Source of the DNA: Bradyrhizobium altum
Lineage (GTDB): Bacteria; Pseudomonadota; Alphaproteobacteria; Rhizobiales; Xanthobacteraceae
NCBI RefSeq assembly: GCF_020889705.1
Contig: NZ_JACMYP010000003.1
Span: 1-64,000, forward strand
DNA length: 64,000 nt
Reading direction: 5' to 3'
Shown here: positions 16,852 through 60,999 of the stretch, piece by piece
How positions within the stretch are numbered: position 1 is the first letter of the stretch
Layout: the number at the start of each line of letters is the position of its first letter
Made by a program: the position numbers and the translations under genes
Notes under the pieces: model-generated
What the model was told of the DNA's origin: nothing
The model's input: the letters and a program-made list of their open reading frames with translations, nothing else
Databases searched by the model: none

Positions 16852-17778
16852 CTACGACTTGCGATGCCTGGCGTTGACCGCGATCGCGGCGGCGGCGGTG
16901 CGGTTCTCGACGCCGAGTTTTGCGTAGATCTGCTCGAGATGCTTGTCGACGGTGCGCGGGCTTAAGCCCAGGATCTGCGCGATGTCGCGGTTGGTCTTGC
17001 CCTTGGAGAGCCAGGACAGCACCTCGCCCTCGCGGGTGGTCAGGCCGAGCTCGCTGGAGAACTCGGCCGGCATGTCGCCGCTGGCGTCCTTGGCCAGCCG
17101 CAGCAGGAATTCGTTGGGCCCGAGCTTGCCCATGAACTGCAGGCGAAGCTGCTCGCTGCCGGGGAATGGCGCCACGGTTGCGGTCTTCGCTCCGGCTTTG
17201 CCCTTCTGCGCCTGTTCAAGCCATTGCGGCATCGGCTCCGGCAGCACGAAATTGTCGGCGGCGTCGGCAAGCGTATCCGACAGCAGTCGCTGTGCCTGCG
17301 GCGTCGCCCATAGCAGCGTGCCTGAGCTGTTGACCGCGAGCAGATAGCGGCCGGAGACGTCCAGCGCGGCGCGGGCGCTCTGCGTCATCCGCGCATTGGC
17401 GAGATGCACCCGGATGCGCGCCAGCATTTCCTCGACCACGATCGGCTTGGTGACATAGTCGACGCCGCCGGCTTCCAGCCCACGCACGATGTGCTCGGTT
17501 TCGGCCAGCCCCGTCATGAAGATGATCGGGACGCCGTCGAGCCCGGCGTCGCGCTTCAGCCGCCGGCAGGTCTCGAACCCGTCCATGCCGGGCATCACGG
17601 CATCGAGCAGCACGATATCGGGCGTGATCTGGTCGACGATGCGCATCGCGGAGGCGCCGTCGAGTGCGACCATCACGGTCATGCCGGCGCCGTCGAGCGC
17701 GTCGGTGAGCAGGCGCAACGTCTCGGGCGAGTCGTCGACGACGAGGGCGACGTCGCGCTTTCGCTGTTCAATGGTCAT
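16852..17778 (-). CDS. Response regulator: receiver plus LuxR-type DNA-binding domain
   Basis: 308 residues. Receiver about 8-125 with acidic pair Asp15/Asp16, phospho-acceptor Asp59 in IVLLDAVMPGMDGFE and Lys111 in YVTKPI. A middle PAS-like stretch (about 135-225) reads LLAVNSSGTLLWATPQAQRLL. C-terminal LuxR helix-turn-helix (about 243-300; TTREGEVLSWLSKGKTNRDIAQILGLSPRTVDKHL). Starts 11 bases inside the end of the hybrid kinase gene, so they are translated together. Likely activates the divergent fmd operon (inference). Confidence 0.92.
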   Translation of the reverse strand: MTIEQRKRDVALVVDDSPETLRLLTDALDGAGMTVMVALDGASAMRIVDQITPDIVLLDAVMPGMDGFETCRRLKRDAGLDGVPIIFMTGLAETEHIVRGLEAGGVDYVTKPIVVEEMLARIRVHLANARMTQSARAALDVSGRYLLAVNSSGTLLWATPQAQRLLSDTLADAADNFVLPEPMPQWLEQAQKGKAGAKTATVAPFPGSEQLRLQFMGKLGPNEFLLRLAKDASGDMPAEFSSELGLTTREGEVLSWLSKGKTNRDIAQILGLSPRTVDKHLEQIYAKLGVENRTAAAAIAVNARHRKS

Positions 17779-20700
17779 AGCTGTGCAATGTTTTCAACGT
17801 CGCCATATATTGATCAAGATCGAACCGGTCGATCAGCGTGCGCATCTGGCCGACGAAGTCGGCATGTTCGGGACATTCGTTGCCGATCTCGTCGAGCTTG
17901 AGCTGGATCGCCCTGATATAGCCGAGCTGGCCGAGGCTGATCAGCTCTTCGACATACTTCACCGGCGGGCGCGAACCAGTGTCGGGCTTCCATTGCGGGG
18001 GCGGAACCTGCTCGGCCTCATACTGCCACTCGATCTTGAGCAGTTGGCGGATGCTCTCGAGCAGCCGCGGGATGTCGATCGGCTTCATCAAATAGCCGTC
18101 GTGGAACGGTTGCGCCAGTGGCGCGCCATGGGCTTCCAATGCGCTCGCGGATATCATCAGGATGCGGGCCTGGTGATGGCCTTCGGAGCGCAAGGTTTCA
18201 GCGACCGTCCAGCCGTCCATGCCCGCCATCGAGATGTCGAGCAGGAACATGTCCGGCCGGCAATGCTGCGCGAGGGCAAGGCAACCTGGCCCGTCCGGTG
18301 CACTGAGCAGGATGAAGCCAAGCGGCGCCAGGATCTCGCGCAGGAGGTCGCGGTGGGTCGGGTCATCGTCGGTGATCAGGATCGTCTTGCGCGGGCCGTG
18401 ATAGCCGTACACCGGAGCGTCGACCGGCGCATCGCGGCGTGGATTGGTGACTTCGGAGAGCAGCAGCTTGACGCGGAAGGTGCTGCCGGTGCCGACCGTG
18501 CTCAAGACCTTGATGTCGCCGCCCATCACACCCGCGAGCAGGCGGCTGATGGTGAGGCCGAGCCCGGTGCCGGTCTGCGGCTGGGTGACGCCGAGCGCGC
18601 CGCGCTCGAACGGCGCGAAGATCCGTTCGAGATCGTCGGGCTGGATGCCCGGCCCGGTATCGATCACCTCGAACTCGGCGACCGGGCTGCGATAATGCAC
18701 CACGAATTGCACCTTGCCGGTCTGCGTGAACTTGATCGCGTTCGAGAGCAGGTTGATCAGGATTTGCCGCAGCCGCTTCTCGTCGGCATAGACCACGACC
18801 GGCAGCACGGCCGGCCGCCTGAACACGAAGTCGATGCCCTTGGCCGCGGCCTGCAGGCGGAACATGCCGACCAGCTGCTCGAGGAAATCGTTCAGCCGCA
18901 CCTCATCGCGCGAAAGATAGAGGCGGCCGGCCTCGATCTTGGAGATATCAAGGATGCCGTCGATCAGTCCCGACAGATGATCGGCGCTCCGGCGGACCAC
19001 GCGCACTTGCCCGCGGGGCCGCACCGGGAGGCTGTCGTCCTGCTCCAGCAGCTGTGCGTAGCCGGAGATCGCATTGAGCGGCGAGCGGAGCTCGTGGCTG
19101 AGGCCGACGACGTATCTGCTCTTGGCGAGATTGGCGGCCTCGGCGACTTCCTTGGCGCGCTGCAGCTCGGCGTCGGTGCGCTTGTGGGCGTCGATCTCCT
19201 GGATTAGCAGCGTGGTCTGCCGGCGGGTTTCGTCTTCCGCGGCACGCCGGCTCTGTTGCGCCAGCACGAACAGCCAAGCGACGACGCCGATGATGAGGGT
19301 CAGCGCAAAGAACACCTTCCACAGCACGTCGGCTAATAGCTCGTTGGCATGCACGGCTGCGGTGGTCTGCAGGTAGATCAGGCCGAGCACCAGCGCCACG
19401 AGGCCGGCCGAGACCGCGAACACGCCGAGGTAATGGCCGAGCTGCGAATTGATGCGGGCGTAGATCGGCTGCGGCATCACCTTGCCCAGGGCGTCCGAGA
19501 CCTGGGCGCCGATCCGTCCATGCGGCTTGCAGAGGTCGTGGCAGCGCGCGTCGAGCGAGCAGCACAATGAGCAGATCGGGCCGGCATAGGCCGGGCAGGC
19601 GGCCATGTCCTCGGGCTCAAACGCATGCTCGCAGATGCAGCACTGGATCGATTCAATGTTCTGCCAGCTCCGCTTCGGCTTGCGGGCGATGTAGTACTTG
19701 CCGCCGGTCGCCCAGGCAATGAGGGGTGCCGCGATGAAGGCGACCGCAAGCGCGACGAAGGCCGACAGCGCTTTCGCGGTCGGGCCGAACAGGCCGTAGA
19801 ATGCGCTGATCGAGACCACGGTCGCAATCGTCATGGCGCCGACGCCGACCGGATTGATGTCGCAGAGGTGGGCGCGCTTGAACTCGATGTGTTGTGGCCG
19901 CAAGCCGAGCGGCTTGTTGATGACGAGGTCGGCCACCAGCGCGCCGACCCAGGCGATCGCGACGTTGGAGTAGAGCGCCAGCGTCTGCTCCAGCGCCTTG
20001 TAGACGCCGATCTCCATTAACAGCAGCGCGACGACGACGTTGAACACCAGCCACACCACGCGGCCGGGATGCGAATGGGTGAGGCGGGAGAAGAAGTTCG
20101 ACCAGGCGATCGAGCCGGCATAGGCGTTGGTGACGTTGATCTTGACCTGCGACAGGATCACGAACGTCCCGGTCAGCGCCATCGCGAGATCCGGCTGTGA
20201 CAGCACGTAGCGGAAGGCTTCGAGATACATGTTCGCGGGCTCGGCCGCGTGCTCGGCCGACACGCCGTGGCTGAGCGCGAAGAAGGCCAGGAACGAGCCG
20301 GCGAGCAGCTTGAGCGCGCCGAGCACGATCCAGCCTGGACCGGCGCTGAGCAACGCGATCCACCAGGCCTTTCGCGAGGTGCGGCGGTCGCGCGGCAGGA
20401 AGCGCAGGAAGTCGACCTGCTCGCCGATCTGCGCCACCAGCGCAAACACGACGGAGGCCGCCGTGCCGAACAGCAGGAGATCGAGGTTGCCCGCGGGATC
20501 GCCGTGCTCGCCGGCGAACTTGCGCCACTCGGTGAACGAATGCGGATTGGCCCAGGCGATCGCCGCGAACGGCATGATGTGGAGGATCACCCACAGCGGC
20601 TGGGTCCAGAGCTGAAAGCGGCTGATCAGCGTGATGCCGTAGACGACTAGCGGAATGATCACGACCGCGCTGATCAGGTAGCCGATCGGCCGCGGGATGC

Positions 20701-21136
20701 CGAAACACATGTCCAGCGCGCTGGCCAGGATCACGGCCTCGATCGCGAAGAAGATGAAGGTGAAGGAGGCGTAGATCAGCGACGTGATGGTCGAGCCGAT
20801 ATAGCCGAAGCCGGCGCCGCGGGTCAGCAGGTCGATGTCGATGCCGCTTTTCGCGGCATGGTAGGCGATCGGCAGTCCGCAGAGGAAGATGATGACGCTA
20901 ACGACCAGGATCGCCGCGGAGGCATTCATCGCGCCGTAGTTCAGCGTGATGGTGCCACCGATCGCCTCGAGCGCAAGGAAGGAGATCGCGCCGAGCGCGG
21001 TGTTGGCGACGCGGGCGGCGGACCAGCGCCGCGCGCTCTTGGCGGTGAAGCGCAGCGCATAGTCTTCCAGCGTCTGGTTGGCGACCCATTGATTATATTG
21101 GCGCCTGACGCGGTCAATCCGCTGCCGCCCTGCCAC
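17768..21136 (-). CDS. NCS1 permease - histidine kinase - receiver fusion sensor
   Basis: 1122 residues in the inner membrane. Order: NCS1 (cytosine/purine permease) transporter region about 20-485 with some 12 membrane segments; a nine-cysteine cluster at 499-536 (CCIC...CxxCC...CxxxC); two more membrane segments about 570-625; a coiled linker; histidine kinase with His681 in SHELRSPLNAI and ATP-binding NLLSNAIKF, DTGPGIQ and GTGLGLTIS blocks; a receiver with Asp967 and Lys1018; and a short helical tail. Start is GTG with AGGAG eight bases upstream; an ATG at 21250 lacks support. A sensor built on a transporter, like CbrA but of a different transporter family. Ligand unknown; neighbours suggest amides or related nitrogen compounds. 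Confidence 0.9.
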   Translation of the reverse strand: MAGRQRIDRVRRQYNQWVANQTLEDYALRFTAKSARRWSAARVANTALGAISFLALEAIGGTITLNYGAMNASAAILVVSVIIFLCGLPIAYHAAKSGIDIDLLTRGAGFGYIGSTITSLIYASFTFIFFAIEAVILASALDMCFGIPRPIGYLISAVVIIPLVVYGITLISRFQLWTQPLWVILHIMPFAAIAWANPHSFTEWRKFAGEHGDPAGNLDLLLFGTAASVVFALVAQIGEQVDFLRFLPRDRRTSRKAWWIALLSAGPGWIVLGALKLLAGSFLAFFALSHGVSAEHAAEPANMYLEAFRYVLSQPDLAMALTGTFVILSQVKINVTNAYAGSIAWSNFFSRLTHSHPGRVVWLVFNVVVALLLMEIGVYKALEQTLALYSNVAIAWVGALVADLVINKPLGLRPQHIEFKRAHLCDINPVGVGAMTIATVVSISAFYGLFGPTAKALSAFVALAVAFIAAPLIAWATGGKYYIARKPKRSWQNIESIQCCICEHAFEPEDMAACPAYAGPICSLCCSLDARCHDLCKPHGRIGAQVSDALGKVMPQPIYARINSQLGHYLGVFAVSAGLVALVLGLIYLQTTAAVHANELLADVLWKVFFALTLIIGVVAWLFVLAQQSRRAAEDETRRQTTLLIQEIDAHKRTDAELQRAKEVAEAANLAKSRYVVGLSHELRSPLNAISGYAQLLEQDDSLPVRPRGQVRVVRRSADHLSGLIDGILDISKIEAGRLYLSRDEVRLNDFLEQLVGMFRLQAAAKGIDFVFRRPAVLPVVVYADEKRLRQILINLLSNAIKFTQTGKVQFVVHYRSPVAEFEVIDTGPGIQPDDLERIFAPFERGALGVTQPQTGTGLGLTISRLLAGVMGGDIKVLSTVGTGSTFRVKLLLSEVTNPRRDAPVDAPVYGYHGPRKTILITDDDPTHRDLLREILAPLGFILLSAPDGPGCLALAQHCRPDMFLLDISMAGMDGWTVAETLRSEGHHQARILMISASALEAHGAPLAQPFHDGYLMKPIDIPRLLESIRQLLKIEWQYEAEQVPPPQWKPDTGSRPPVKYVEELISLGQLGYIRAIQLKLDEIGNECPEHADFVGQMRTLIDRFDLDQYMATLKTLHSYDH

Positions 21137-21303
21137 TCGCTCTACTCCTGGTCCACGATGCTCTGATCGCGGGCAAATCCCGTACCAAAAACCTACGTCG
21201 CTATTTTGCGGTGCAGTATACGCGATCTCACGTATCAGTGCGCTGCACAAAAGTAAGCAATCCTCGCCCGATCAATAAGCGTTCTCGAACCAATGGGGTG
21301 CTC
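21137..21303. promoter_or_regulatory. Divergent promoter region, sensor kinase / fmd operon
   Basis: 167 bases between the two divergent units. Shows an imperfect dyad: TTTTG..GTGCAG on the left and CTGCAC..AAAA on the right, around TATACG/CGTATC, at about 21203-21257. Candidate binding site for the LuxR-type response regulator; no confident -35/-10 call. Confidence 0.35.
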
Positions 21304-22566
21304 ATGTCAGACGAAACCAAACCAGGCCTGAAGTCTCCGCTCCGGCGCAAGCTCTTGATGGGAATGGCTGCTTTGCCGGCCGTTTCGATGCTGGGCCGTC
21401 CCGCTTTTGCAGACGTTCCTGCAACCTCCGCGGTCAACACCACGGGTCTTGCAGTCACCGATAGCGAAGTCACGGTGGGCATCCTGCATTCCGTGACCGG
21501 CACCATGGCGATCTCCGAGACCGGATCTGTCGAGGCCGAGAAGCTCGCGATCGAGCAGATCAACGCCGCCGGCGGCGTGCTCGGCCGCAAGATCAAGTTC
21601 ATCCAGGAAGACGGCGCGAGCGACTGGCCGACCTTCGCGGAAAAGGCCAAGAAGCTCCTGGTCAACGACAAATGCGCGGCCGTGATGGGCTGCTGGACCT
21701 CGGCCTCGCGCAAGGCGGTGCTGCCGGTGTTCGAGCAGTACAACGGCATGCTCTATTACCCGACCTTCTATGAAGGCCTCGAGCAGTCCAAGAACGTCAT
21801 CTACACCGGCCAGGAGGCGACGCAGCAGATCATCGCCGGCCTCGACTGGGTCAACAAGACCAAGGGCGCCAAGAGCTTCTATCTGCTCGGCTCGGACTAC
21901 ATCTGGCCTCGCACCTCGAACAAGATCGCGCGCAAGCACATCGAGAACCATCTGCAGGGCTGCAAGGTGGTCGGTGAGGAGTACTTCCCGCTCGGCTCGA
22001 CCCAGTTCAACTCGGTCATCAACAAGATCAAGCTGACCAAGCCGGACGTGATCTACGCGATCATCGTCGGCGGCTCCAATGTCGCGTTCTACAAGCAGCT
22101 CAAGGCGGCCGGCATCGACCTGTCGAAGCAGACGCTGCTGACCATCTCGGTCACCGAGGACGAGATCGACGGTATCGGCGGCGAGAACATCGCCGGTGCC
22201 TATGCCTGCATGAAGTACTTCCAGTCGCTCGACAATCCGAACAACAAGGCCTTCGTACCCGCGTTCAAGAAGATGTGGGGCGAGAAGACCGTGATCGGCG
22301 ACGTGACACAGGCTGCCTATCTCGGCCCGTGGCTGTGGAAGTTGACGGTCGAGAAGGCGGGCTCCTTCGACATCGACAAGATCGCGGCGGCTTCCCCCGG
22401 CGTCGAGTTCAAGGGCGCGCCGGAAGGCTATGTCCGGATCCACGAGAACCATCATCTGTGGTCGAAGACCCGCGTCGGACGCGCCAAGGCCGATGGGCAG
22501 TATGAGCTGATCTACGAGACCGCCGATCTCGTCGAGCCGGATCCGTTCCCCAAGGGCTACCAGTGA
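21304..22566 (+). CDS. fmdD: Amide/urea ABC transporter substrate-binding protein (FmdD/UrtA type)
   Basis: 420 residues. Twin-arginine-like signal (Arg14-Arg15, RRKLLMGMAALPAVSMLG, ending AFA near residue 36), then a type-I periplasmic binding fold of the UrtA/FmdD/AmiC family (VTVGILHSVTGTMAISE, AAGGVLGRKIKFIQEDGASD, CWTSASRKAVLPVFE, YYPTFYEGLEQS). First gene of an operon with formamidase, so likely captures formamide or short amides, as in Methylophilus FmdD. Start MSDETKP chosen over an ATG 31 codons upstream because it gives a clean signal peptide. Confidence 0.9.
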   Translation: MSDETKPGLKSPLRRKLLMGMAALPAVSMLGRPAFADVPATSAVNTTGLAVTDSEVTVGILHSVTGTMAISETGSVEAEKLAIEQINAAGGVLGRKIKFIQEDGASDWPTFAEKAKKLLVNDKCAAVMGCWTSASRKAVLPVFEQYNGMLYYPTFYEGLEQSKNVIYTGQEATQQIIAGLDWVNKTKGAKSFYLLGSDYIWPRTSNKIARKHIENHLQGCKVVGEEYFPLGSTQFNSVINKIKLTKPDVIYAIIVGGSNVAFYKQLKAAGIDLSKQTLLTISVTEDEIDGIGGENIAGAYACMKYFQSLDNPNNKAFVPAFKKMWGEKTVIGDVTQAAYLGPWLWKLTVEKAGSFDIDKIAAASPGVEFKGAPEGYVRIHENHHLWSKTRVGRAKADGQYELIYETADLVEPDPFPKGYQ

Positions 22567-22633: not shown

Positions 22634-22736
22634 AACGAAGCACACAACGCATCGTGGCGTGGACGTCATCGTCCTCGCCACGGAACGAGCGTCGCTTGAC
22701 CGGCGGCGCGTGCCCCTTGGAATGACGGAGGACCAG

Positions 22737-23663
22737 ATGTTCGGCGACTATTCGATCAGTGATCTCGGCGCCATCCTTGCAATGCAAGGATTTGCCGGGC
22801 TCATCCTGTTCTCCGTCTATGTGCTGATGGCGCTCGGGCTTGCCATCATCTTCGGCCAGATGGGCGTCATCAACATGGCGCATGGCGAGTTCATGATCCT
22901 CGGCGCCTACGTCACCTGGATGACGTCGAACGCCGTGCAGCACGTCGCGCCCTGGCTGTTCCCCGGCTACTTCTTCATCGCGATGATCCTGGCATTCATC
23001 GCCTCCGGCGCACTCGGCATGCTGGTCGAATGGGCGCTGATACGCCATCTCTACAAGCGCCCGCTCGATACGCTGCTGGCAACCTGGGGGCTCAGCCTGA
23101 TCCTGCAGCAGGCCTATCGCTCGATCTTTGGCGCGCGCGAGGTCGGCGTCGAGCTGCCGGAATGGATGATGGGCTCCTGGCAGGCGACCGACTCGATCCA
23201 GATCCCGATCAACGGCATGTTCGTGATGGCGCTGACCATGCTGATCACGATCGTGGTCGCCTATGTGCTGTTCTGGTCCAGTTGGGGCAAGCAGGTGCGC
23301 GCCGTGGTGCAGAACCGCGTGATGGCGGGCGCCGTCGGCATCAATACCGAGAAGGTCGATCGCTACACCTTTGGCCTCGGTTGCGGCATCGCCGGGATTG
23401 CAGGCTCGGCCTTCACCATGATCGGCTCGACCGGGCCGACCGCCGGCCAGCTCTACATCGTCGACACCTTCCTGGTCGTCGTGTTCGGCGGCGCCGCCTC
23501 GCTGTTCGGCACCATCGCCTCCGCCTTCTCGATCTCGCAGACCCAGTCGACGCTGGAGTTCTTCCTGTCGGGATCGATGGCCAAGGTGATCACGCTCTTG
23601 ACCATCGTCGCGATCCTGATGGTGCGTCCGCAGGGGCTCTTCGCGCTCAACGTCCGCAAATAA
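22737..23663 (+). CDS. Amide/urea ABC transporter permease 1 (UrtB/LivH type)
   Basis: 308 residues, about eight membrane segments, LivH/UrtB family: LAIIFGQMGVINMAHGEFMILGAY, RHLYKRPLDTLLATWGLSLILQQ, and C-terminal LLTIVAILMVRPQGLFAL. Inner-membrane half of the importer fed by the binding protein upstream. Start at MFGDYS with GGAGG five bases upstream; an ATG five codons earlier is possible. Preceded by a 170-base gap containing a palindromic repeat. Confidence 0.9.
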   Translation: MFGDYSISDLGAILAMQGFAGLILFSVYVLMALGLAIIFGQMGVINMAHGEFMILGAYVTWMTSNAVQHVAPWLFPGYFFIAMILAFIASGALGMLVEWALIRHLYKRPLDTLLATWGLSLILQQAYRSIFGAREVGVELPEWMMGSWQATDSIQIPINGMFVMALTMLITIVVAYVLFWSSWGKQVRAVVQNRVMAGAVGINTEKVDRYTFGLGCGIAGIAGSAFTMIGSTGPTAGQLYIVDTFLVVVFGGAASLFGTIASAFSISQTQSTLEFFLSGSMAKVITLLTIVAILMVRPQGLFALNVRK

Positions 23664-23680: not shown

Positions 23681-24814
23681 ATGGTCATCAACTCGCGCTT
23701 TTTCAATCGCTCCGAACTGCTCGGCTTCCTTGCGCTCGCGGTGCTGTTGCTTCTCATCCTGCCGCTGTCGCTGGATATCTTCCGCCTCAACCTGGTCGCC
23801 AAATACCTGACTTACGCCTTCGTCGGCATCGGCCTCGTGCTGTGCTGGGGCTATGGCGGCATCCTGAGCCTGGGGCAAGGCGTGTTCTTCGGTCTCGGCG
23901 GCTACTGCATGGCGATGTACCTCAAGCTCGAGGCGTCCTCGGTCGCGAACACCAAGATCCAGTCGACGCCCGGTATCCCCGACTTCATGGACTGGAACCA
24001 GATCACGCAGCTTCCGCTGTTCTGGAAGCCGTTCCACAGCTTCCCGGTCACGCTGCTGGCGATCTTGCTGGTTCCTGCCTTCTTCGCGCTGATCATCGGC
24101 GCCGCGATGTTCAAGCGCCGGGTCGGCGGCGTCTACTTTGCGATCATCACGCAAGCGATCGCCGCGATCCTCACCATTCTGATCGTGGGGCAGCAGGGTT
24201 ACACCGGCGGCATCAACGGCATCACGGATCTGCGCACACTGCACGGCTGGGACATCCGCACCGATCACGCCAAGTTCATTCTGTATTTTGTCGAGGTTGT
24301 GTTGCTGTTCGGATGCATCGTTGCCGCGCAATTCATCCGCCTGACAAAACTCGGGCGCATCCTGGTGGCGATGAGGGAGCAGGAGGATCGCGTGCGCTTC
24401 TCCGGTTACAGCGTCGCCAACTTCAAGATCTTCGCGTTCTGTGCCGCGGCGGTGTTCGCCGCGATCGGCGGCGCCATGTTCACGCTCGAGGTCGGCTTCA
24501 TGTCGCCCTCCTTTGTCGGCATCGTGCCGTCGATCGAGATGGTGATCTACACCGCGGTTGGTGGCCGGATGTCGATCTTCGGCGCGGTCTGGGGCGCGCT
24601 GCTGGTCAATTTCGCCAAGACCAGCCTCTCGGAATCCTTCCCGCAGCTCTGGCTGTTCGGCCTCGGCGCGCTGTTCATCGCGGTGGTGCTGGCCTTCCCG
24701 AACGGCCTCGCCGGTGTCTGGGCGGACCATATCCAGCCGCGCATCGATCGCCTGCTGGCATCGCGAAGATCAAAATCGGCGGGCCTTGTCGCCGACGGCG
24801 CACCGGCCGAGTGA
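23681..24814 (+). CDS. Amide/urea ABC transporter permease 2 (UrtC/LivM type)
   Basis: 377 residues with about nine to ten membrane segments; LivM/UrtC family blocks LCWGYGGILSLGQGVFFGLGGYCMA, IITQAIAAILTILIVGQQGYTGGINGITDL, and SIEMVIYTAVGGRMSIFGAVWGALL. Pairs with permease 1. ATG at 23681, 18 bases after the previous stop, behind a weak purine-rich site; the frame is open upstream but only as a shadow of the preceding gene. Confidence 0.9.
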   Translation: MVINSRFFNRSELLGFLALAVLLLLILPLSLDIFRLNLVAKYLTYAFVGIGLVLCWGYGGILSLGQGVFFGLGGYCMAMYLKLEASSVANTKIQSTPGIPDFMDWNQITQLPLFWKPFHSFPVTLLAILLVPAFFALIIGAAMFKRRVGGVYFAIITQAIAAILTILIVGQQGYTGGINGITDLRTLHGWDIRTDHAKFILYFVEVVLLFGCIVAAQFIRLTKLGRILVAMREQEDRVRFSGYSVANFKIFAFCAAAVFAAIGGAMFTLEVGFMSPSFVGIVPSIEMVIYTAVGGRMSIFGAVWGALLVNFAKTSLSESFPQLWLFGLGALFIAVVLAFPNGLAGVWADHIQPRIDRLLASRRSKSAGLVADGAPAE

Positions 24815-24826
24815 GGAGGGACCATC

Positions 24827-25582
24827 ATGCTCGTCGGCCATCAGCCCAAGGATTTCCTGCTCGCGGTCTCCGGACTCACCGTGTCCTTTGACGGCTTCAA
24901 GGCGGTGAACGATCTCTCCTTCTATGTTGAGGAGAACGAGATCCGCGTCATCATCGGCCCGAACGGCGCCGGCAAGACCACCGTGCTCGACCTGATCTGC
25001 GGCAAAACAAGGGCCACGTCAGGCTCGATCCAGTTCCGCGGCCAGGAGCTGACCCGGCTGCGCGAGAACGAGATCGTGCAGGCTGGCGTCGGCCGTAAGT
25101 TCCAGACGCCGTCGGTGTTCGAGGACCTCACCGTGTTCGAGAACCTCGAAATCTCCTACCCGCGCGGCCGCACCGTGTTCGGCTCGCTGACTTTCCAGCG
25201 CGACGACGCGGTCAAGCAGCGGGTCGAGGAGGTCGCCGAGATGATCTTCCTGAAGGACCGCCTCAACACCTATGCCGACCAGCTCAGCCATGGCCAGAAG
25301 CAGTGGCTCGAGATCGGCATGCTGCTGATCCAGGACCCGGATCTCTTGATGCTCGACGAGCCGGTGGCCGGCATGAGCGTCTCCGAGCGCGCCAAGACCG
25401 CCGAGCTGCTCAACCGGATCATCAAGGACCGCTCGGTGCTGGTGATCGAGCACGACATGAAGTTCGTCGAGGACATCGCGCACAAGGTCACGGTGCTGCA
25501 TCAGGGCCAGATCCTGTCCGAAGGGACGATGGAGCACGTCAAGAACGATCCAAAAGTGATCGAAGTTTACCTGGGCCACTAG
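24827..25582 (+). CDS. Amide/urea ABC transporter ATPase 1 (UrtD/LivG type)
   Basis: 251 residues. Walker A GPNGAGKT at about 44-51, signature QLSHGQKQWLEIGM, Walker B LLMLDEPVAGMS, switch histidine in VLVIEHDMKFVE. The LSHGQKQWLEI variant of the ABC signature is typical of the urea/amide importer ATPases. GAGGAGG precedes the start. Energises the importer with ATPase 2. Confidence 0.92.
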   Translation: MLVGHQPKDFLLAVSGLTVSFDGFKAVNDLSFYVEENEIRVIIGPNGAGKTTVLDLICGKTRATSGSIQFRGQELTRLRENEIVQAGVGRKFQTPSVFEDLTVFENLEISYPRGRTVFGSLTFQRDDAVKQRVEEVAEMIFLKDRLNTYADQLSHGQKQWLEIGMLLIQDPDLLMLDEPVAGMSVSERAKTAELLNRIIKDRSVLVIEHDMKFVEDIAHKVTVLHQGQILSEGTMEHVKNDPKVIEVYLGH

Positions 25583-25630
25583 CCCATGATCCCGGAAAGT
25601 GGCGTCCAGTTTCCGGACAAGATCATGGGC
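25582..25630. repeat. Palindromic repeat between the two ATPase genes
   Basis: Outer arms GCCCATGATC (25582-25591) / GATCATGGGC (25621-25630) and inner arms CCGGAAA (25592-25598) / TTTCCGG (25610-25616). I recognise the CATGATC..GGAAA..TTTCC..GATCATG pattern as a dispersed rhizobial element. It begins at the last base of the ATPase 1 stop codon and ends 20 bases before the ATPase 2 start. Confidence 0.65.
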
Positions 25631-25650
25631 AAGAACTGAGGAACACCGCG

Positions 25651-26340
25651 ATGCTGGCAATCAATGATCTTCATGTCGCCTACGGCCAGAGCGAGGTGCT
25701 GCACGGCCTCAACGTCTCCGTCGCGCCCAACGAGATCGTCGCGATCATGGGCCGCAACGGCATGGGCAAGACCACGCTGATGAAGTCGCTGATGGGCATC
25801 CTGCCGGCCAAGAGCGGCAAGGTGACCATGGACGGCACCGAACTCGGCGCGATGAAGAGCTACGAGCGGGTGGCGAAGGGGCTTGCGTACGTGCCGCAGG
25901 GCCGCATGATCTTCTCCACCATGACGGTGAAGGAGAACATCGAGACCGGCCTCGTTATCTCCGGCGGCTCGGAAGTGCCCGGCGATATCTACGAGCTGTT
26001 TCCGGTGCTGCTCGAGATGAAGGGCCGCCGCGGCGGCAATCTCTCGGGCGGACAGCAGCAGCAGCTCGCGATCGCCCGCGCGCTGGCGACCAAGCCGAAG
26101 GTGCTGCTGCTGGACGAGCCGACCGAAGGCATCCAGCCGTCGATCATCAAGGACATGGCGCGCACCCTGAAGCGGATCCGCGATGAACGGGGGCTGTCGA
26201 TCGTCGTCTCCGAGCAGGTCCTGAGCTTCGCGCTCGACATCGCCGACCGTGTGCTGGTCATCGAGAACGGCGAGATCGTCCGCGACGATTCGCGCGCCAG
26301 CGTCGATGCCGCGCAGATCTCGAAATATCTTTCCGTCTAA
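25651..26340 (+). CDS. Amide/urea ABC transporter ATPase 2 (UrtE/LivF type)
   Basis: 229 residues. Walker A GRNGMGKTT at about 34-42, signature [16 protein letters not shown], Walker [14 protein letters not shown], and the LivF-type PQGRMIFSTMTVKENI. Its C-terminal portion ends with SEQVLSFALDIADRVLVIENG. Completes the five-part importer ahead of formamidase. Confidence 0.92.
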   Translation: MLAINDLHVAYGQSEVLHGLNVSVAPNEIVAIMGRNGMGKTTLMKSLMGILPAKSGKVTMDGTELGAMKSYERVAKGLAYVPQGRMIFSTMTVKENIETGLVISGGSEVPGDIYELFPVLLEMKGRRGGNLSGGQQQQLAIARALATKPKVLLLDEPTEGIQPSIIKDMARTLKRIRDERGLSIVVSEQVLSFALDIADRVLVIENGEIVRDDSRASVDAAQISKYLSV

Positions 26341-26365: not shown

Positions 26366-27595
26366 ATGCCTGATACACTGATCAAGGTCGATCTCAGCAA
26401 GTCGGCCTATGAAAACGACAAGATTCACAACCGCTGGCATCCGGAGGTTCCGATCGTCGAGTGGGTCAGCCCGGGCGACGACTTCATCATCGAGACGGTC
26501 GACTGGACCGGTGGCTTCATCAAGAACAACGATTCCGCCGATGACGTGCGCGACATCGATCTGTCGATCGTGCACTTCCTGTCCGGTCCGATCGGCGTCA
26601 AGGGCGCCGAGCCCGGCGATCTCCTCGTCGTCGACCTGCTCGACGTCGGTCCCTTGAAGGAGAGCCTGTGGGGCTTCAACGGCTTCTTCTCCAAGCAGAA
26701 TGGTGGCGGCTTCCTCACCGACCATTTCCCGCTCGCGCAGAAGTCGATCTGGGACATCAAGGGTCTCTACACGTCGTCGCGTCACATCCCGGGCGTCGAC
26801 TTCGCCGGCCTGATCCATCCCGGCCTGATCGGCTGTCTGCCCGACGCCAAGATGCTGGCGGCCTGGAACAAGCGCGAAGCCGAGCTGATCGCGACCAACC
26901 CGACCCGCGTGCCGGGCCTCGCCAATCCGCCGTTCGCGCCGACCGCGCATGCCGGCCAGGCCAAGGGTGACGTCAAGGCCAAGATCGGTCTTGAGGGCGC
27001 CCGCACCGTGCCGCCGCGTGAGCATGGCGGCAACTGCGACATCAAGGATCTGTCGCGCGGATCGAAGATCTATTTCCCGGTCTATGTACCGGGCGGCGGC
27101 CTTTCGATGGGCGATTTGCATTTCAGCCAGGGCGACGGCGAGATCACCTTCTGCGGCGCCATCGAGATGGCCGGCTGGCTGCACATCAAGGTCGACATCA
27201 TCAAGGACGGCGTATCGAAGTACGGCATCAAGAACCCCGTGTTCAAGCCGTCGCCGATCACGCCGAACTACAAGGACTATCTGATCTTCGAGGGCATCTC
27301 GGTCGACGAGGCGGGCAAGCAACACTATCTCGATGTCCACATTGCCTATCGCCAGGCCTGCCTCAACGCGATCGAGTATCTGAAGAAGTTCGGCTACTCC
27401 GGCGCCCAGGCCTATTCGATCCTCGGCACCGCGCCGTGTCAGGGCCATATCTCCGGCGTGGTCGACGTGCCCAACGCCTGCGCCACGCTGTGGTTGCCGA
27501 CGGAGATCTTCGACTTCGACGTCATGCCGTCGTCGGCGGGACCGATCAAGCACATCAAGGGCGACGTGCAGATGCCGATCTCGCCAGACAAGTGA
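26366..27595 (+). CDS. fmdA: Formamidase (FmdA/AmdA family)
   Basis: Hydrolyses formamide (perhaps acetamide) to ammonia and formate. 409 residues, the usual length. Family blocks: NRWHPEVPIVEWVSPGDDF, IPGVDFAGLIHPGLIGCLP, PPREHGGNCDIKDLSRGSKI, FPVYVPGGGLSMGDLHFSQGDGEI, and the C-terminal YSILGTAPCQGHISGVVDVPNA. Strong ribosome site AAGGGGAG. Directly after the amide importer, which supports amide uptake followed by cytoplasmic hydrolysis. Confidence 0.93.
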   Translation: MPDTLIKVDLSKSAYENDKIHNRWHPEVPIVEWVSPGDDFIIETVDWTGGFIKNNDSADDVRDIDLSIVHFLSGPIGVKGAEPGDLLVVDLLDVGPLKESLWGFNGFFSKQNGGGFLTDHFPLAQKSIWDIKGLYTSSRHIPGVDFAGLIHPGLIGCLPDAKMLAAWNKREAELIATNPTRVPGLANPPFAPTAHAGQAKGDVKAKIGLEGARTVPPREHGGNCDIKDLSRGSKIYFPVYVPGGGLSMGDLHFSQGDGEITFCGAIEMAGWLHIKVDIIKDGVSKYGIKNPVFKPSPITPNYKDYLIFEGISVDEAGKQHYLDVHIAYRQACLNAIEYLKKFGYSGAQAYSILGTAPCQGHISGVVDVPNACATLWLPTEIFDFDVMPSSAGPIKHIKGDVQMPISPDK

Positions 27596-27695: not shown

Positions 27696-28043
27696 ATGCC
27701 GATCTACGAATATCTCTGCAACGATTGCGGTCCCTTTACCGACATGCGGCCGATGGCGGAATGCGACCTGCCGCAGGACTGCCCGCAATGCGAGACGACG
27801 TCGCCGCGTGTGATCCTCACTGCGCCGGCGTTCTTCTGCATGCCCTCGGACAAGCGCAAGGCGCACGCCACCAACGAGCAGAGCCGGCACGCGCCGAAGA
27901 CGCTCGATCAGTACAAGGCCGCGCACGGCCCGGGCTGCGGCTGCTGCTCTACGGGCAAGAAGAAGCCGGCGCGGCTGATGACCAAGACGAAGAGCGGCGC
28001 GAAAGGCTTTCCGACCGCGCGTCCCTGGATGATCAGCCACTAG
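27696..28043 (+). CDS. fmdB: FmdB zinc-ribbon protein
   Basis: 115 residues. N-terminal MPIYEYLCNDCG with Cys8, Cys11, Cys29 and Cys32, the FmdB zinc ribbon; followed by a basic, flexible C-terminal half containing CGCC. Proposed in Methylophilus as a regulator of formamidase and found beside fmdA here as well. Start has AAGGA upstream. Role as regulator or assembly factor is by family analogy only. Confidence 0.88.
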   Translation: MPIYEYLCNDCGPFTDMRPMAECDLPQDCPQCETTSPRVILTAPAFFCMPSDKRKAHATNEQSRHAPKTLDQYKAAHGPGCGCCSTGKKKPARLMTKTKSGAKGFPTARPWMISH

Positions 28044-52821: not shown

Positions 52822-53095
52822 GTTTCCCCCGAGTTACTATCGATCCCTGCGCTCGATGCGGGCAATCGATCGCGCGTCTACCGGAGATAGATGGTCCGTG
52901 GATCGCTGCACCTGTGATCATTCGCGGGTGACATGCGGTTTGCCTGCTTTCGCGTCAGCGGCGCTGACAGGATGAGCTGCCTGGGTCCTTGTCTCGCGGC
53001 AGATGACATGCAATCTTTCGCCCCCGGCAATGCTGTTCGAGAGCAACAAGAACAATAATCCCTCTCGTCCCTCCAATTCTGTCGAGGGCTTGATC
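52822..53095. other. Intergenic region upstream of amiC
   Basis: 274 bases without a gene. Contains the dyad GTCAGC-GGC-GCTGAC at 52954-52968 and two copies of TGACATGC about 78 bases apart (52929 and 53007 regions). It should hold the end of the catabolic operon and the promoter of amiCR; I cannot assign promoter boxes. Confidence 0.4.
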
Positions 53096-54250
53096 ATGTC
53101 GAATCCTACCCAAGCGACCTCCGCTCCATGGCGGATAGGCGTGCTGTTCTCGCGAACCGGCTTCATGTCGGTGATCGAGGAGACCCAGTATCAGGGCACG
53201 CAGCTTGCGATCGAGGAGGTGAACGAGGCGGGCGGGGTCTGCGGCCGCGAGCTGGTTCCCGTCGCCTACGACCCCGGCTCGGACTCGGCCGCCTATGGCC
53301 ACTACGCCAAACGGTTGATGGTGGAGGATCAGGTCAGCACTATATTCGGCTGCTACACCTCGTCGAGCCGCAAGGCGGTGCTGCCGGTGGTCGAACGGCT
53401 GAACGGCCTGCTTTGGTACCCGACGCTCTATGAGGGTTTCGAGGCGTCGCCGAACGTCATCTACACCGGCGCCTCGCCGAATCAGAACAGCCTCGCGCTG
53501 TGCCGCTATCTGATGGATACGTTCGGAACACGATTTTATTTCGTGGGGTCGGACTACATCTATCCGCGCGAGTCCAACCGGGTGATGCGCGAACTGCTGA
53601 AGAGCAATGGCGGCTCGGTCGTGGGCGAACGCTACGTCAATGTCTACGCGCGCTGGCAGGACTTTGTCCCGATCATCCAGGACATCAAGCGGGTCAGGCC
53701 CGACGTGATCTTCTCGACCGTCGTGGGGGAGGGCACGGTCTTCCTCTATCAGGCCTACGCAAATGTCGGGCTCGATCCAAAGCAAGTGCCGATCGCCAGC
53801 CTGACCACGACGGAAGCCGAAATCGCCGCCATGGGTTTCGACGTCGGCGAAGGACACGTCACCGCGGCATCCTATTTCCAGGGTGTCGAGGGCAGCGCCA
53901 ACAGCGCGTTTGTGCAGCGCTTCAAGAAGCGGTTCGGCGCCGATATCTCGACCAACATGTGCGCAGAGGCATCCTATTTCCAGCTGCATCTGTTTGCGAA
54001 GGCGCTCGAGCAGGTCAATTCGCTCGACACGGAAGTGCTCCGCTCCATGGTGTTCGGCACCAGCTTTGATGCACCGCAAGGTGCCGTCACCGTCAACCCG
54101 ATGTCGGGCCACACCGATCTGTGGACACGCATCGGGCGCGCCAACCGCCAGGGACAGTTCGATGTGGTCAGCCAGTCGAAGGAGCCGGTGCATGCAGATC
54201 CGTTCCTGATCGGGTATGGTCGTGCAACGCAAACAGGAAGCGTCCAATGA
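53096..54250 (+). CDS. amiC: AmiC, amide-sensing negative regulator
   Basis: 384 residues, the length of Pseudomonas AmiC (385). Periplasmic-binding-protein fold of the AmiC/FmdD family (IGVLFSRTGFMSVIEETQYQG, CYTSSSRKAVLPVVERLNGLLWYPTLYEGFE) but no signal peptide, so it stays in the cytoplasm. In Pseudomonas it binds amides and, when empty, silences AmiR. Start at MSNPTQA with GAGGG upstream. Stop overlaps amiR as ATGA, matching the AmiC-AmiR complex. Confidence 0.92.
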   Translation: MSNPTQATSAPWRIGVLFSRTGFMSVIEETQYQGTQLAIEEVNEAGGVCGRELVPVAYDPGSDSAAYGHYAKRLMVEDQVSTIFGCYTSSSRKAVLPVVERLNGLLWYPTLYEGFEASPNVIYTGASPNQNSLALCRYLMDTFGTRFYFVGSDYIYPRESNRVMRELLKSNGGSVVGERYVNVYARWQDFVPIIQDIKRVRPDVIFSTVVGEGTVFLYQAYANVGLDPKQVPIASLTTTEAEIAAMGFDVGEGHVTAASYFQGVEGSANSAFVQRFKKRFGADISTNMCAEASYFQLHLFAKALEQVNSLDTEVLRSMVFGTSFDAPQGAVTVNPMSGHTDLWTRIGRANRQGQFDVVSQSKEPVHADPFLIGYGRATQTGSVQ

Positions 54251-54888
54251 ACGAGCAGTCGCGTAAGCCGTCGCTGAGCCGAGACGTCGGCGGACGCAAG
54301 ACCATGGTTCAGGAACTTGCCGATCTGTCGGCCGTGGTGGTCGCGCCGGTCGACGATCAGGTCGGCATGTTGCTGCGCGAATTGCAGCGATTCAGGATGC
54401 GGGTGCGTCAGGTCTGGCCTATGCCGGAGAGCGTGCCGGCCGATGCCGACGTGGTTTACTGCGAATACTCGCCGGATCTGGCACGGCGCCTGCCGTGGAT
54501 TCCAGGCGATGCACGTTCCGCGCTGGTCGTGATCCTGCCGGCGACGGAGACCGTTCACGCCGATGCGCTGTGTCACGCAACGCCCAACGCCGTTCTGCCG
54601 CGGCCGTTCACGCAGAATGCAGTGTTGTCCAGCCTCGTGCTGGCGCGCAGCCAGTTCAGTTACGAACGGCGGCTTCGCAGCAAGATCGAGAAGCTCGACG
54701 ACAATCTGCGCTCGATGCGCACGGTGGAACGCGCCAAGGCCATCCTGATGGCGACGCGCCAAATGCCGGAAACCGAAGCCTATGGCTTCATCAGACGACA
54801 GGCGATGGATCGTCGCGTGTCGGCAAGTGCAGTCGCCGCGGCGATTGTTGACTCGTTCGAACTGCTTGGCTACGATCATCAACAGTAA
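54247..54888 (+). CDS. amiR: AmiR, ANTAR-domain antiterminator
   Basis: 213 residues. N-terminal pseudo-receiver (about 28-135) without the usual aspartate-lysine set, a coiled coil (about 138-160), and a C-terminal three-helix ANTAR RNA-binding domain (MRTVERAKAILMATRQMPETEAYGFIRRQAMDRRVS). In Pseudomonas AmiR binds the amidase leader RNA and stops termination when amide frees it from AmiC. A leader terminator lies directly downstream here. Start chosen within the amiC stop. Confidence 0.92.
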   Translation: MNEQSRKPSLSRDVGGRKTMVQELADLSAVVVAPVDDQVGMLLRELQRFRMRVRQVWPMPESVPADADVVYCEYSPDLARRLPWIPGDARSALVVILPATETVHADALCHATPNAVLPRPFTQNAVLSSLVLARSQFSYERRLRSKIEKLDDNLRSMRTVERAKAILMATRQMPETEAYGFIRRQAMDRRVSASAVAAAIVDSFELLGYDHQQ

Positions 54889-54905
54889 GCCCCAATAGCG
54901 GGGCC

Positions 54906-54923
54906 GGCGGCGACAGCGCCGCC
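54906..54923 (+). promoter_or_regulatory. Leader RNA hairpin upstream of the ami terminator
   Basis: GGCGGCG (54906-54912) / CGCCGCC (54917-54923) with loop ACAG. A second, weak hairpin GGC-AACAAA-GCC (54936-54947) with a six-base loop overlaps the first arm of the terminator, as an antiterminator would. Loops do not fully match the A1/G4 hexaloop rule for ANTAR targets. Confidence 0.45.
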
Positions 54924-54944
54924 TTCGACACAACCGGCAACAAA

Positions 54945-54993
54945 GCCCTCCCAATGCTCGCGTAAGCGCGCATCGGGAGGGCTTTTTGTTTTT
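54945..54993 (+). terminator. Intrinsic leader terminator, likely AmiR antitermination site
   Basis: GCCCTCCC (54945-54952) pairs with GGGAGGGC (54975-54982), with an upper stem ATGC/GCAT capped by a GTAA loop, then TTTTTGTTTTT. A textbook intrinsic terminator 22 bases before the binding-protein ATG. Placed between amiR and the transporter genes it would attenuate the whole downstream operon. Confidence 0.85.
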
Positions 54994-55014
54994 CAGTCCT
55001 GAAGGGAGCTAGGG

Positions 55015-56265
55015 ATGAGCATTTCACGGCGGACTTTGCTGAGGAATACCGCGGCGCTCGGCGCATTTGCGGGCGCCGGACTGCCGCATATCTGGATCAA
55101 GAACGCCGACCTCGCGTACGCCGCGGGCGGCGAGATCAAGGTCGGCGTGCTGTTCTCGCTGACGGGAACGACCGCGATCATCGAGGAATCGCTCAACAAG
55201 GCGACGCTGCTTGCGATCGAGGAGATCAACGCCGCCGGCGGCATCAAGGGCAGCAAGATCGTGCCGATCGTCGAGGATCCTGCGTCGGATCCGGCGACCT
55301 TCTCGGAGAAGGCCCGCAAGCTCGTCGTCGGCGACAAATGCGTGAGCGTGTTCGGCTCCTATACCTCGGCGAGCCGCAAGGCGGTGCTTCCGGTCTTCGA
55401 GCGGCAGAACAATCTCTATTGGTATCCGACGCTCTATGAGGGCCGCGAGTGCTCGAAGAACGTCATCTACACCGGCGCGGTGCCGAACCAGCAGCAGGAC
55501 GAGTTCGTGCCCTGGCTGGTCAAGAAGTTCGGCAAGAAGTTCTATCTGATCGGCTCCAACTACATCTATCCGAAGGAAGAGAACAACTATTGCAAGAAGC
55601 TGCTCGAGAAGCTCGGCGGCGAGGTCGTGGCGGAAGAATATGTGCCGCTCGGCCATTCCGAATTTTCTTCCGTCATCAACAAGATCCGCTCGACGCAGCC
55701 GAACGTGATCTTCTCCACCGTGGTCGGCGATTCCGTGGTCGCACTGCATCGTCAGTACAAGGCGGCCGGTCTCGATCCCGAGAAGATGCCGATGGCGAGC
55801 CTGACGACTTCCGAGAACGAGGTCGCGGCGATGGGCGGAGAGGCTGCCGCCGGTCACTTCACCTCGGCGCCGTACTTCATGGTGCACAAGTCGCCTGAGA
55901 ACGAGAAGTTCGTCGAGGCCTACAAGAAGCGCTGGGGCGCCGACAAGGTGACGCATTTCGTCTCCGAGGCCTGCTACTTCCAGACCTATCTGTTCAAGCA
56001 GGCGGTCGAGAAGCTCGCGACCAGCGACCTCACGCCGCCGAACATCCGCGACGCGGTCAAGGGCCAGGAAGTGATCGCGCCGCAGGGCAAGGTCCGGATC
56101 GAGCCGGAGAATCTGCACACCTGGCTGTGGCCCAAGATCGCGCAGGCGAAGTCGAACGGCCAGTTCGAGATTCTCGTCGAGGCCAAGGATTGGCTGAAGC
56201 CGGTGCCGTACGCGGCCTATCCCGGGCAGTCCTGCACCGAGAAGGGCCTGGTCGAGAAGAGCTGA
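55015..56265 (+). CDS. Amide/urea ABC transporter substrate-binding protein
   Basis: 416 residues. Twin-arginine signal (SRRTLLRN, Arg5-Arg6) with likely cleavage after AYA near residue 37, then the UrtA/FmdD/AmiC fold (IKVGVLFSLTGTTAIIEESLN, SYTSASRKAVLPVFERQNNLYWYPTLYEG). Homologous to AmiC just upstream and to FmdD at 21.3 kb. First gene after the leader terminator. Start has GAAGGGAG upstream. Confidence 0.92.
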   Translation: MSISRRTLLRNTAALGAFAGAGLPHIWIKNADLAYAAGGEIKVGVLFSLTGTTAIIEESLNKATLLAIEEINAAGGIKGSKIVPIVEDPASDPATFSEKARKLVVGDKCVSVFGSYTSASRKAVLPVFERQNNLYWYPTLYEGRECSKNVIYTGAVPNQQQDEFVPWLVKKFGKKFYLIGSNYIYPKEENNYCKKLLEKLGGEVVAEEYVPLGHSEFSSVINKIRSTQPNVIFSTVVGDSVVALHRQYKAAGLDPEKMPMASLTTSENEVAAMGGEAAAGHFTSAPYFMVHKSPENEKFVEAYKKRWGADKVTHFVSEACYFQTYLFKQAVEKLATSDLTPPNIRDAVKGQEVIAPQGKVRIEPENLHTWLWPKIAQAKSNGQFEILVEAKDWLKPVPYAAYPGQSCTEKGLVEKS

Positions 56266-56388
56266 CGGGGGCTGACGACGGCCGTCGGCGTGCGGCGCCG
56301 GCGGCCGGCTTCCGGCAACGAAAGCGGCCTCTCGCACACATGCGAGGGGTGCAGGGCGCCCAAACCAACTTCGAAAGCGGATCCCGAC

Positions 56389-57258
56389 GTGGACCAACTC
56401 ATCGAACAAATTGTCACAGGCCTCAGCATCGGGTCGATTCTGCTGCTGGTGGCGCTGGGACTGTCCATCATCTACGGCTCGATGGGCATCATCAATCTCG
56501 CGCATGGCGAGTTCGTGATGCTCGGCGCTTACGCCGCCTGGGTGTTCCACACCTATCTCGGGCTCGGCCTGCTGGCGAGCCTCGTTCCGATCTTCCTGGT
56601 GGTGGCCGCGTTCGGCTGGGTCATCGAACGCTACGTCCTGAGCCTGCTGAACAACCGGCCGCTCGACACGATCCTCGCTACCTGGGGCGTCGGCATCATG
56701 CTGCAACAGGCGGTGCGGCTGATGGTCGGCAGCGAACTCCGCTATGTGCAGCTGCCGCCGGCGCTGGCCGACAGCATGGACGTGTTCGGCATCCCGATAT
56801 CGTCGTACCGGGTGTTCCTGTTCGTCGTGTCGATCGCACTGTTCGGGGCGACCTGGTTGCTCATGAACCGCACCACGGTCGGGATGAAGCTGCGTGCCAT
56901 CATCCAGGACCGCTCGGTTGCCGCCTCGTTCGGCATCAACGCCAAGCGGGTCTATGCGCTGACCTTCGCCTATGGCGCAGGCCTTGCCGGACTCGCCGGC
57001 GCGCTGGTGTCGCCGCTCAAGAGCGTCTCGCCCGATATGGGCACCGGCTACGTGGTCGACGCCTTCATGGTGGTGGTGCTCGGCGGCGTGCAGAGCCTCG
57101 CCGGCACCGTGGCAAGTGCCTTCATCCTCGGCGAGCTCTCCGGCGGCATCGCCTTCCTGCAAAACGACACGGTGGCCAAGACGATCGTGCTGCTCGCCAT
57201 CGTCGTGCTCATCCGTTTCCGCCCCGAGGGGCTTTTCACCGCACGCGTGCGGGCCTGA
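56389..57258 (+). CDS. Amide/urea ABC transporter permease 1 (UrtB/LivH type)
   Basis: 289 residues, about eight membrane segments: LSIIYGSMGIINLAHGEFVMLGAY, LLNNRPLDTILATWGVGIMLQQ, and C-terminal IVVLIRFRPEGLFTARVRA. GTG at 56389 (MDQLIEQIV) gives the normal family N-terminus; a GTG at 56290 would add a basic leader of 33 residues and is less likely. Same order as in the fmd system. Confidence 0.88.
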   Translation: MDQLIEQIVTGLSIGSILLLVALGLSIIYGSMGIINLAHGEFVMLGAYAAWVFHTYLGLGLLASLVPIFLVVAAFGWVIERYVLSLLNNRPLDTILATWGVGIMLQQAVRLMVGSELRYVQLPPALADSMDVFGIPISSYRVFLFVVSIALFGATWLLMNRTTVGMKLRAIIQDRSVAASFGINAKRVYALTFAYGAGLAGLAGALVSPLKSVSPDMGTGYVVDAFMVVVLGGVQSLAGTVASAFILGELSGGIAFLQNDTVAKTIVLLAIVVLIRFRPEGLFTARVRA

Positions 57259-57274
57259 GACAGATCGCTCATCT

Positions 57275-59848: not shown

Positions 59849-59880
59849 CGGGAATTATCGTTCAGAAAGGGAGTCGAGAC

Positions 59881-60918: not shown

Positions 60919-60999
60919 TTGGAAAAGCCGAGCTGTGCCGGCGCGATCATTCGCGCCGGCGCGGTTCTGAAACTGTTGCAGCGGGAAACGGGGGTTACC

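Follow-up and report, generated by a model that had tools for sequence, protein, structure and literature searches.

The window analyzed here, a stretch of 64,000 nucleotides from Bradyrhizobium altum, encodes a permease-kinase-receiver fusion and a LuxR-type response regulator. We consider it likely that the fusion is a transporter-receptor ("transceptor") histidine kinase for short amides, and for urea in some lineages, and that its partner regulator binds a palindrome and activates the divergent urt-fmd operon. The presence of an NCS1-type fold on a kinase and the link of this kinase to amide uptake are well supported by the fold, the bridging homologues, the gene neighbourhood and the shared palindrome.

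Architecture of the sensor and origin of its permease domain

The gene pair comprises the following features:

16852 to 17778, minus strand: response regulator (308 aa, ATG start) with a receiver (Asp 59), a middle domain and a LuxR-type HTH
17768 to 21136, minus strand: permease-kinase-receiver fusion (1122 aa plus stop, GTG start)
18050 to 18382, minus strand: receiver domain of the fusion (Response_reg, residues 919-1029 by Pfam; Asp 967)
18458 to 18784, minus strand: HATPase_c domain of the fusion (residues 785-893 by Pfam)
18926 to 19123, minus strand: HisKA domain of the fusion (residues 672-737 by Pfam; phospho-acceptor His 681)
19259 to 19444, minus strand: two membrane helices (residues about 565-626, from the structure model and sequence)
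19529 to 19642, minus strand: eight-cysteine element (residues 499-536; may form a treble clef or metal site)
19682 to 21037, minus strand: NCS1-type permease domain (residues about 34-485, from the model, fold searches and a bridging homologue)

The preliminary description of this DNA had proposed a single 1122-residue chain whose end is overlapped by 11 bases by the gene of a LuxR-type regulator, and each of these points held. The frame reads through from the permease-like domain to the cysteine-rich element, two membrane helices, HisKA, HATPase and receiver, with the last three domains assigned by Pfam; positions 17768-17778 are common to both genes, and the regulator is matched by Response_reg (96.1 bits) and GerE (LuxR, 66.9 bits). 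The GTG start of the fusion at 21136-21134 is preceded by an AGGAG ending 8 bases upstream, and position 1 is aligned to Met or Val in 46 of the 63 homologues of a thinned alignment. The fusion is the sole full-length copy in its own genome, where other matches cover kinase or receiver parts. No sequence error splitting the frame was found; since open frames of similar length occur repeatedly across many genomes and 501 plasmid records contain a match covering at least 80% of the fusion query, the frame is not an assembly accident. Residues H681 and D967 of the fusion and D59 of the regulator are invariant in seven-sequence alignments, and D59 also across 37 sequences. A structure model of the regulator (mean pLDDT 84.2) has a small alpha-beta domain between the receiver and the HTH, which is tentatively taken as PAS-like.

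The N-terminal part had been described as a complete NCS1 permease, an assignment borne out by fold and bridging homologues but not by Pfam. Residues 1-600 of the fusion have no Pfam family match (one insignificant row), PF02133 or another transporter family such as SSF is matched by none of the 63 members of the thinned alignment, and sequence searches of solved structures revealed no credible relative of the permease domain. With an AlphaFold2 model built from 37 sequences (mean pLDDT 77.8, pTM 0.79) as the query, the first five Foldseek ranks are held by CodB and Mhp1 (CodB E 1.2e-8). The VIA-align Z-scores, in a ranking that covers Foldseek's own matches only, are 33.2 for CodB, 28.6, 27.3 and 25.5 for Mhp1, and 24.2 for the best-ranked chain from a different family. 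A bridging stand-alone permease (L136:7949-9442), matched by the sensor family profile at E 2e-40 and 27% identical to the permease domain over 483 residues, passes PF02133 with 36.4 bits against a cut-off of 23.5. Given the similarity in fold to CodB and Mhp1 and the bridging homologue that passes PF02133, the domain is best regarded as a divergent NCS1 relative; it is NCS1-related, not a filed PF02133 member. Compared profile to profile, the domain and the other NCS1 protein of the window match weakly (probability 36%, E 0.0004).

The binding pocket was compared with CodB in an alignment made by hand, using CodB numbering and the Na+ ligands given in the part of PMC9379551 available to us. 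The ligands T278 and T279 align to K332 and I333, and N280 to N334; all three sensor residues are invariant in 63 of 63 members. Position 332 is lysine or arginine in the stand-alone relatives as well, and this residue therefore marks the permease branch, not the sensor. The replaced ligands hint at a sodium-independent pocket, and their apparent replacement by K332 and I333 may also mean that transport has been lost. To our knowledge, Na+ use is not common to all NCS1 carriers. The stacking residue F204 of CodB aligns without gaps to leucine 233, and the pocket helices are highly conserved. Columns 230-235 and 323 are among those that best separate 66 amide-linked sensors from 15 urea-linked ones (86 of 123 distinct domains after thinning, with five lacking a linked enzyme excluded), a difference that is suggestive only because the labels change five times on the tree and provide only about three independent pairs.

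The extra membrane segments noted earlier correspond to the two helices at about residues 565-626; the eight-cysteine element had been absent from that description. All 63 members keep its residues C499, C502, C514, C522, C525, C526, C532 and C536, and the model folds the element at moderate confidence into a treble-clef-like hairpin and short helix that may bind metal. The CxxC...CxxC half is kept by stand-alone permeases of Acinetobacter, Klebsiella, Moraxella and Streptomyces, and all eight cysteines by that of Methylovirgula; those of Arthrobacter and Tsukamurella are without the pattern. Since cysteines are kept by stand-alone permeases, the element appears to belong to the permease branch, to which the helices and kinase were added. 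Among 44 matches to the cysteine element plus helices in 299 genomes, 42 lie in a permease-kinase sensor (two variant kinases included), one is a 25-residue fragment and one belongs to a permease-less kinase, and a free general module was accordingly rejected for this sample. L186:3357-5213 encodes a 618-aa kinase-receiver protein of the sensor family without a permease, retaining only a remnant cysteine stretch.

Genomic linkage to amide and urea utilization

The sensor pair had been described as divergent from an amide importer-formamidase operon, which NCBIfam and similarity searches now identify as urtABCDE-fmdA:

21304 to 22566, plus strand: urtA, substrate-binding protein (ATG; TIGR03407, 547 bits against a cut-off of 492.75)
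22659 to 23663, plus strand: urtB, start uncertain (TIGR03409)
23681 to 24814, plus strand: urtC (ATG; by similarity only)
24827 to 25582, plus strand: urtD (TIGR03411)
25573 to 26340, plus strand: urtE, start uncertain (by similarity only)
26366 to 27595, plus strand: fmdA, formamidase (NF045496, 752 bits against a cut-off of 500)
27696 to 28043, plus strand: FmdB-like zinc-ribbon gene, similar to the zinc-ribbon gene of locus L009

UrtA, UrtB, UrtD and FmdA all score above the curated NCBIfam cut-offs. A second amide cluster at 53003-62334 on the plus strand of the window contains two UrtA-like genes, urtBCDE-like genes, an aliphatic amidase (59881-60918) and a CodB-like NCS1 permease (60919-62334); neither the palindrome nor a sensor was found in it. 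Two further urtA genes of the same genome are located on short contigs without a sensor.

A survey of genomes for this domain order and its neighbours, suggested earlier as a check, was carried out with a profile of sensor residues 1-580. Matches were obtained in 39 of 299 Pseudomonadota genomes, own included; the 44 profile rows include one stand-alone permease, one 53-residue fragment and one gene cut by a contig end. FmdA above the cut-off is encoded in 31 of the 299 genomes, 30 of which also have the sensor, while nine genomes have the sensor but no FmdA and one (G114) has FmdA but no sensor (Fisher p 4e-32, without correction for relatedness). For 30 of 34 FmdA genes a sensor lies within 10 kb on the same contig; of the remaining four, three belong to genomes that carry the sensor on a different contig. 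Conversely, FmdA is missing from the 10 kb on either side of 13 of 43 sensor genes, a count that excludes the stand-alone permease. The surroundings of 11 of these 13 were examined: seven are near urease UreC, three have an importer whose urtA is of the type seen next to urease, and a contig end truncates the last; the two outside this set are a copy in G111, whose FmdA is on another contig, and a fragment in G236. The urease-linked sensors are scattered over several places on the tree.

A scan of a genome collection yielded at least 588 confirmed stretches, and Bradyrhizobium is over-represented in our set because the best 80 of these were used. In the 87 loci formed by the window and L009-L094, many of which are close relatives, the sensor has a divergent urtA-type gene next to it in 78 and the regulator gene next to it in 84; 64 loci encode FmdA, 38 aliphatic amidase and one UreC. 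Nine loci are without the divergent urtA: the sensor stands at a contig end in L052, L062, L072 and L093, an ORF-calling artefact accounts for L051, an aliphatic amidase is divergent from the sensor instead of urtA in L020, fmdA lies upstream of the sensor in its place in L094, and no urt or amidase gene is near the sensor of L012 or L059.

Variants of the arrangement were also observed. In two genomes, the permease, cysteine and helix parts of the sensor are joined to a different kinase without a receiver (L137:7499-10156 and L138:7663-10347), and a REC-kinase partner protein and fmdA are nearby. The fusion is also present on a conjugative plasmid of Enterobacter hormaechei (L172:10941-14321, annotated "ATP-binding protein"), where it adjoins urtABCDE and a CN-hydrolase-type formamidase and insertion sequences flank the region. 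The permease query matches 342 Klebsiella records, fusions and stand-alone proteins not being separated in this count; the one examined encodes a stand-alone permease.

Stand-alone relatives of the permease domain were inspected in nine annotated records of a plasmid collection. Seven of these proteins, when compared with the sensor domain, are 40-54% identical to it; the A. ursingii permease is 99.8% identical to that of A. lwoffii, and the value for Arthrobacter U41 is 62%. In seven of the nine records, the permease gene is near urease (A. lwoffii, A. ursingii and K. pneumoniae), formamidase (Moraxella and Tsukamurella) or aliphatic amidase (Methylovirgula and Arthrobacter U41); no matching enzyme is annotated near it in the Streptomyces angustmyceticus and Arthrobacter NicSoilB11 records. 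In Methylovirgula the gene order is fmdA, sensor, regulator, stand-alone permease, amidase. Two further records are unannotated in the stretch concerned; in one of them, from A. baumannii (4.1 Mb, filed as a plasmid), a search of the sequence places the sensor and regulator divergent from a stand-alone permease, and the palindrome lies between them (score 24.3, next 7.5). That the sensor stands next to a separate permease of the type it contains is the strongest indication that the two have a ligand in common. The genes of more remote relatives (27%) are followed by a CN-hydrolase gene, and in Pantoea genes for a binding protein and an AmiR-like protein come after it.

The permeases beside urease in Acinetobacter and Klebsiella (L214:7944-9551, L216:5956-7563 and L222:6001-7608) are annotated as hypothetical, cytosine or allantoin permeases and are candidate urea permeases. 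On the Arthrobacter U41 plasmid (L223:6013-12131), a stand-alone permease, an aliphatic amidase, an AAA ATPase and an acetate-CoA ligase follow in a row that reads as an acetamide-use cassette.

These relatives bear on an alternative that we consider unlikely, in which the permease domain serves only as an anchor or reports on importer activity, and the kinase detects amide or nitrogen status by another route, for instance through contact with UrtABCDE or through the cysteine element responding to metal or redox state. No part of the sensor is more invariant than the eight cysteines, a permease-less kinase with the two helices exists, and the CodB sodium site is apparently lost, all of which would agree with such a role; yet the pocket helices are highly conserved, and in both Methylovirgula and the A. 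baumannii record a stand-alone permease gene is next to the sensor pair. Moreover, no Urt gene was found in the 13.6-kb stretch of A. baumannii (by search) or the 13.5-kb stretch of Methylovirgula (by annotation), so that kinase contact with Urt is not general.

The putative operator

The transceptor reading assigns the following element to the regulator:

21218 to 21235: palindrome ATACG-N8-CGTAT, proposed operator of the regulator (core TACG-N8-CGTA at 21219-21234)

The core has one match in the window, where 0.08 is expected, at about 80 bp from the sensor start and about 70 bp from urtA. Among 50 upstream regions picked by locus number, omitting most Bradyrhizobium, it is present in 24, more than any other of the 3840 inverted 4-mer pairs tested; the leading pair outside the palindrome reaches 9 of 50. 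In the 98 loci with enough upstream DNA, many of them close relatives, 60 have the exact palindrome no more than 500 bp from the start of the sensor gene and 38 do not; 62 of the 87 matches in 2.03 Mb fall within this distance. One-base variants occur in L029, L030, L040, L055, L074 and L094, and no convincing palindrome was found in L020, L059, L089, L093 and the urease-linked L140, L174 and L175; L020 and L089 are amide-linked.

The palindrome also precedes fmdA in 10 of 12 loci where this gene has its own promoter (the ten being related Gammaproteobacteria), against one of 52 where it lies inside the operon and 59 of 3000 random stretches of the same loci. Among 24 aliphatic amidase genes with their own promoter, only two have it. 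No palindrome occurs in the two variant loci (best scores 3.3 and 4.8), where the REC-kinase partner shows no DNA-binding domain, an absence that agrees with binding by the LuxR-type regulator.

An extended form of the palindrome has three copies in the whole genome, one of them here, and a reversed control is equally frequent; if the palindrome is the operator, this scarcity suggests a narrow regulon. The same count weighs against a broad CbrA-like regulator of carbon and nitrogen balance with urt-fmd as only one target among others, a reading that recalls the many genes controlled by CbrA (PMC8871633, in the portion available) and that we hold to be quite improbable.

A sigma-54 promoter was considered and set aside. 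Sites with at least 9 of 11 matches occur in 46 of 84 regions compared with 3.3 in shuffles, but they were not relied on because most of the 46 regions come from the Bradyrhizobium group. In the window, a sigma-54-like element common to Bradyrhizobium relatives lies at 21172-21187 on the minus strand, about 50 bp before the sensor start.

Proposed signalling and comparison with known systems

In the proposed transceptor mechanism, the permease domain would bind, and perhaps carry, a short carboxamide: formamide or acetamide here, and urea in urease-linked relatives. The resulting shape change would pass via the cysteine element and helices to the kinase, and phosphate would move from H681, directly or through D967, to D59 of the regulator. 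The phosphorylated regulator would then bind ATACG-N8-CGTAT at 21218-21235 and activate urtABCDE-fmdA, and probably its own operon too. Formamide or acetamide is the likeliest ligand in the organism of the window. For the formamidase-linked urt cluster of B. japonicum, a SIMBAL study argued that amides rather than urea are carried (PMC3098086), and formamide was suggested for such a cluster in Pseudomonas veronii (PMC13209695, 2026); the plasmid urt-formamidase cluster of Klebsiella ST307/CG307 is treated as a urea system (PMC5506382, PMC13060141). All four sources are represented here by partial text, and in that of the two Klebsiella papers the term "histidine kinase" is absent.

Amides or nucleobase-derived nitrogen had been suggested as the signal; the neighbours and the palindrome sustain the amide part, and the nucleobase part is poorly supported, the genes near both sensors and stand-alone permeases being amide- and urea-degrading. 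A nucleobase, hydantoin or allantoin-like ring as ligand, with the amide genes serving a downstream part of ring breakdown, is very improbable: although characterised bacterial NCS1 carriers mostly take nitrogen heterocycles and some stand-alone relatives are annotated as cytosine or allantoin permeases, the stacking F204 of CodB is apparently replaced by leucine 233, and MetT is an NCS1 carrier of a non-cyclic substrate (both statements on carriers from the available text of PMC13390362).

A broader proposal, on which we are evenly divided, is that an NCS1-like branch in Proteobacteria and Actinobacteria, found beside urease in Acinetobacter and Klebsiella, consists of unrecognised urea and short-amide permeases, and that it gave rise to widespread transporter-receptor kinases which use the same pocket and a cysteine-rich metal element to switch on the importer and hydrolase of each lineage.

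If the transceptor reading is true, a second transporter family is used in a kinase fusion with another coupling element, and the design evolved more than once; an NCS1-type kinase would then offer a comparison for the transmission of transporter motion to a kinase. It would also name a sensor of amide and urea use, in rhizobia as well as in further bacteria from soils and the sea, and the palindrome makes its regulon directly testable. The sensor stands beside urt-formamidase on an Enterobacter plasmid, and papers on Klebsiella call such clusters urea systems (PMC5506382 and PMC13060141, as far as their available text goes).

Several known systems resemble parts of this arrangement. The B. 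japonicum formamidase-linked urt cluster represents the same type of target operon, and the available text of its description (PMC3098086) neither contains the term "two-component" nor mentions the sensor. MetT, the NCS1 metformin carrier likened here by its description, has a non-cyclic nitrogen substrate and is described as a transporter only (PMC13390362, partial text). CodB and Mhp1, the nearest solved folds to the permease domain, have no kinase and bind cytosine or hydantoins with Na+, and by alignment their key pocket and sodium residues differ from those of the sensor. AmiC/AmiR exerts amide-responsive control of aliphatic amidase genes and consists of a binding protein and an antiterminator, with no kinase. 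It is amide-responsive like the proposed sensor, and in Pantoea such an AmiR-like gene occurs after that of the remote stand-alone permease.

The closest parallels in design are CbrA/CbrB, CrbS/R, RpuS/R and PrlS/R, which likewise combine a transporter domain and a histidine kinase in one chain; the fusions in the cited papers are SLC5-based (PMC13022988, PMC7918813, PMC9100948), and the term "NCS1" is absent from the portions of these texts available to us. The earlier view that an NCS1-based sensor is a different design from CbrA is upheld by a fold nearest to CodB and Mhp1 and by PF00474 (SSF), which matches neither the fusion nor any of the 63 members and has its matches elsewhere in the same genome. 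Such a sensor had also been called poorly described, and literature searches covering open-licence papers returned no account of an NCS1-type kinase. According to the same partial sources, several SLC5/STAC kinases are hybrids with a LuxR-type partner, like the present pair; they couple an SLC5 transporter to a STAC linker, whereas the sensor described here has an NCS1-type fold followed by the cysteine element and two helices and, unlike them, a predicted amide or urea ligand. The sensor is a transporter-kinase fusion as CbrA is, but with a different transporter family, an apparently different linker and a different predicted ligand.
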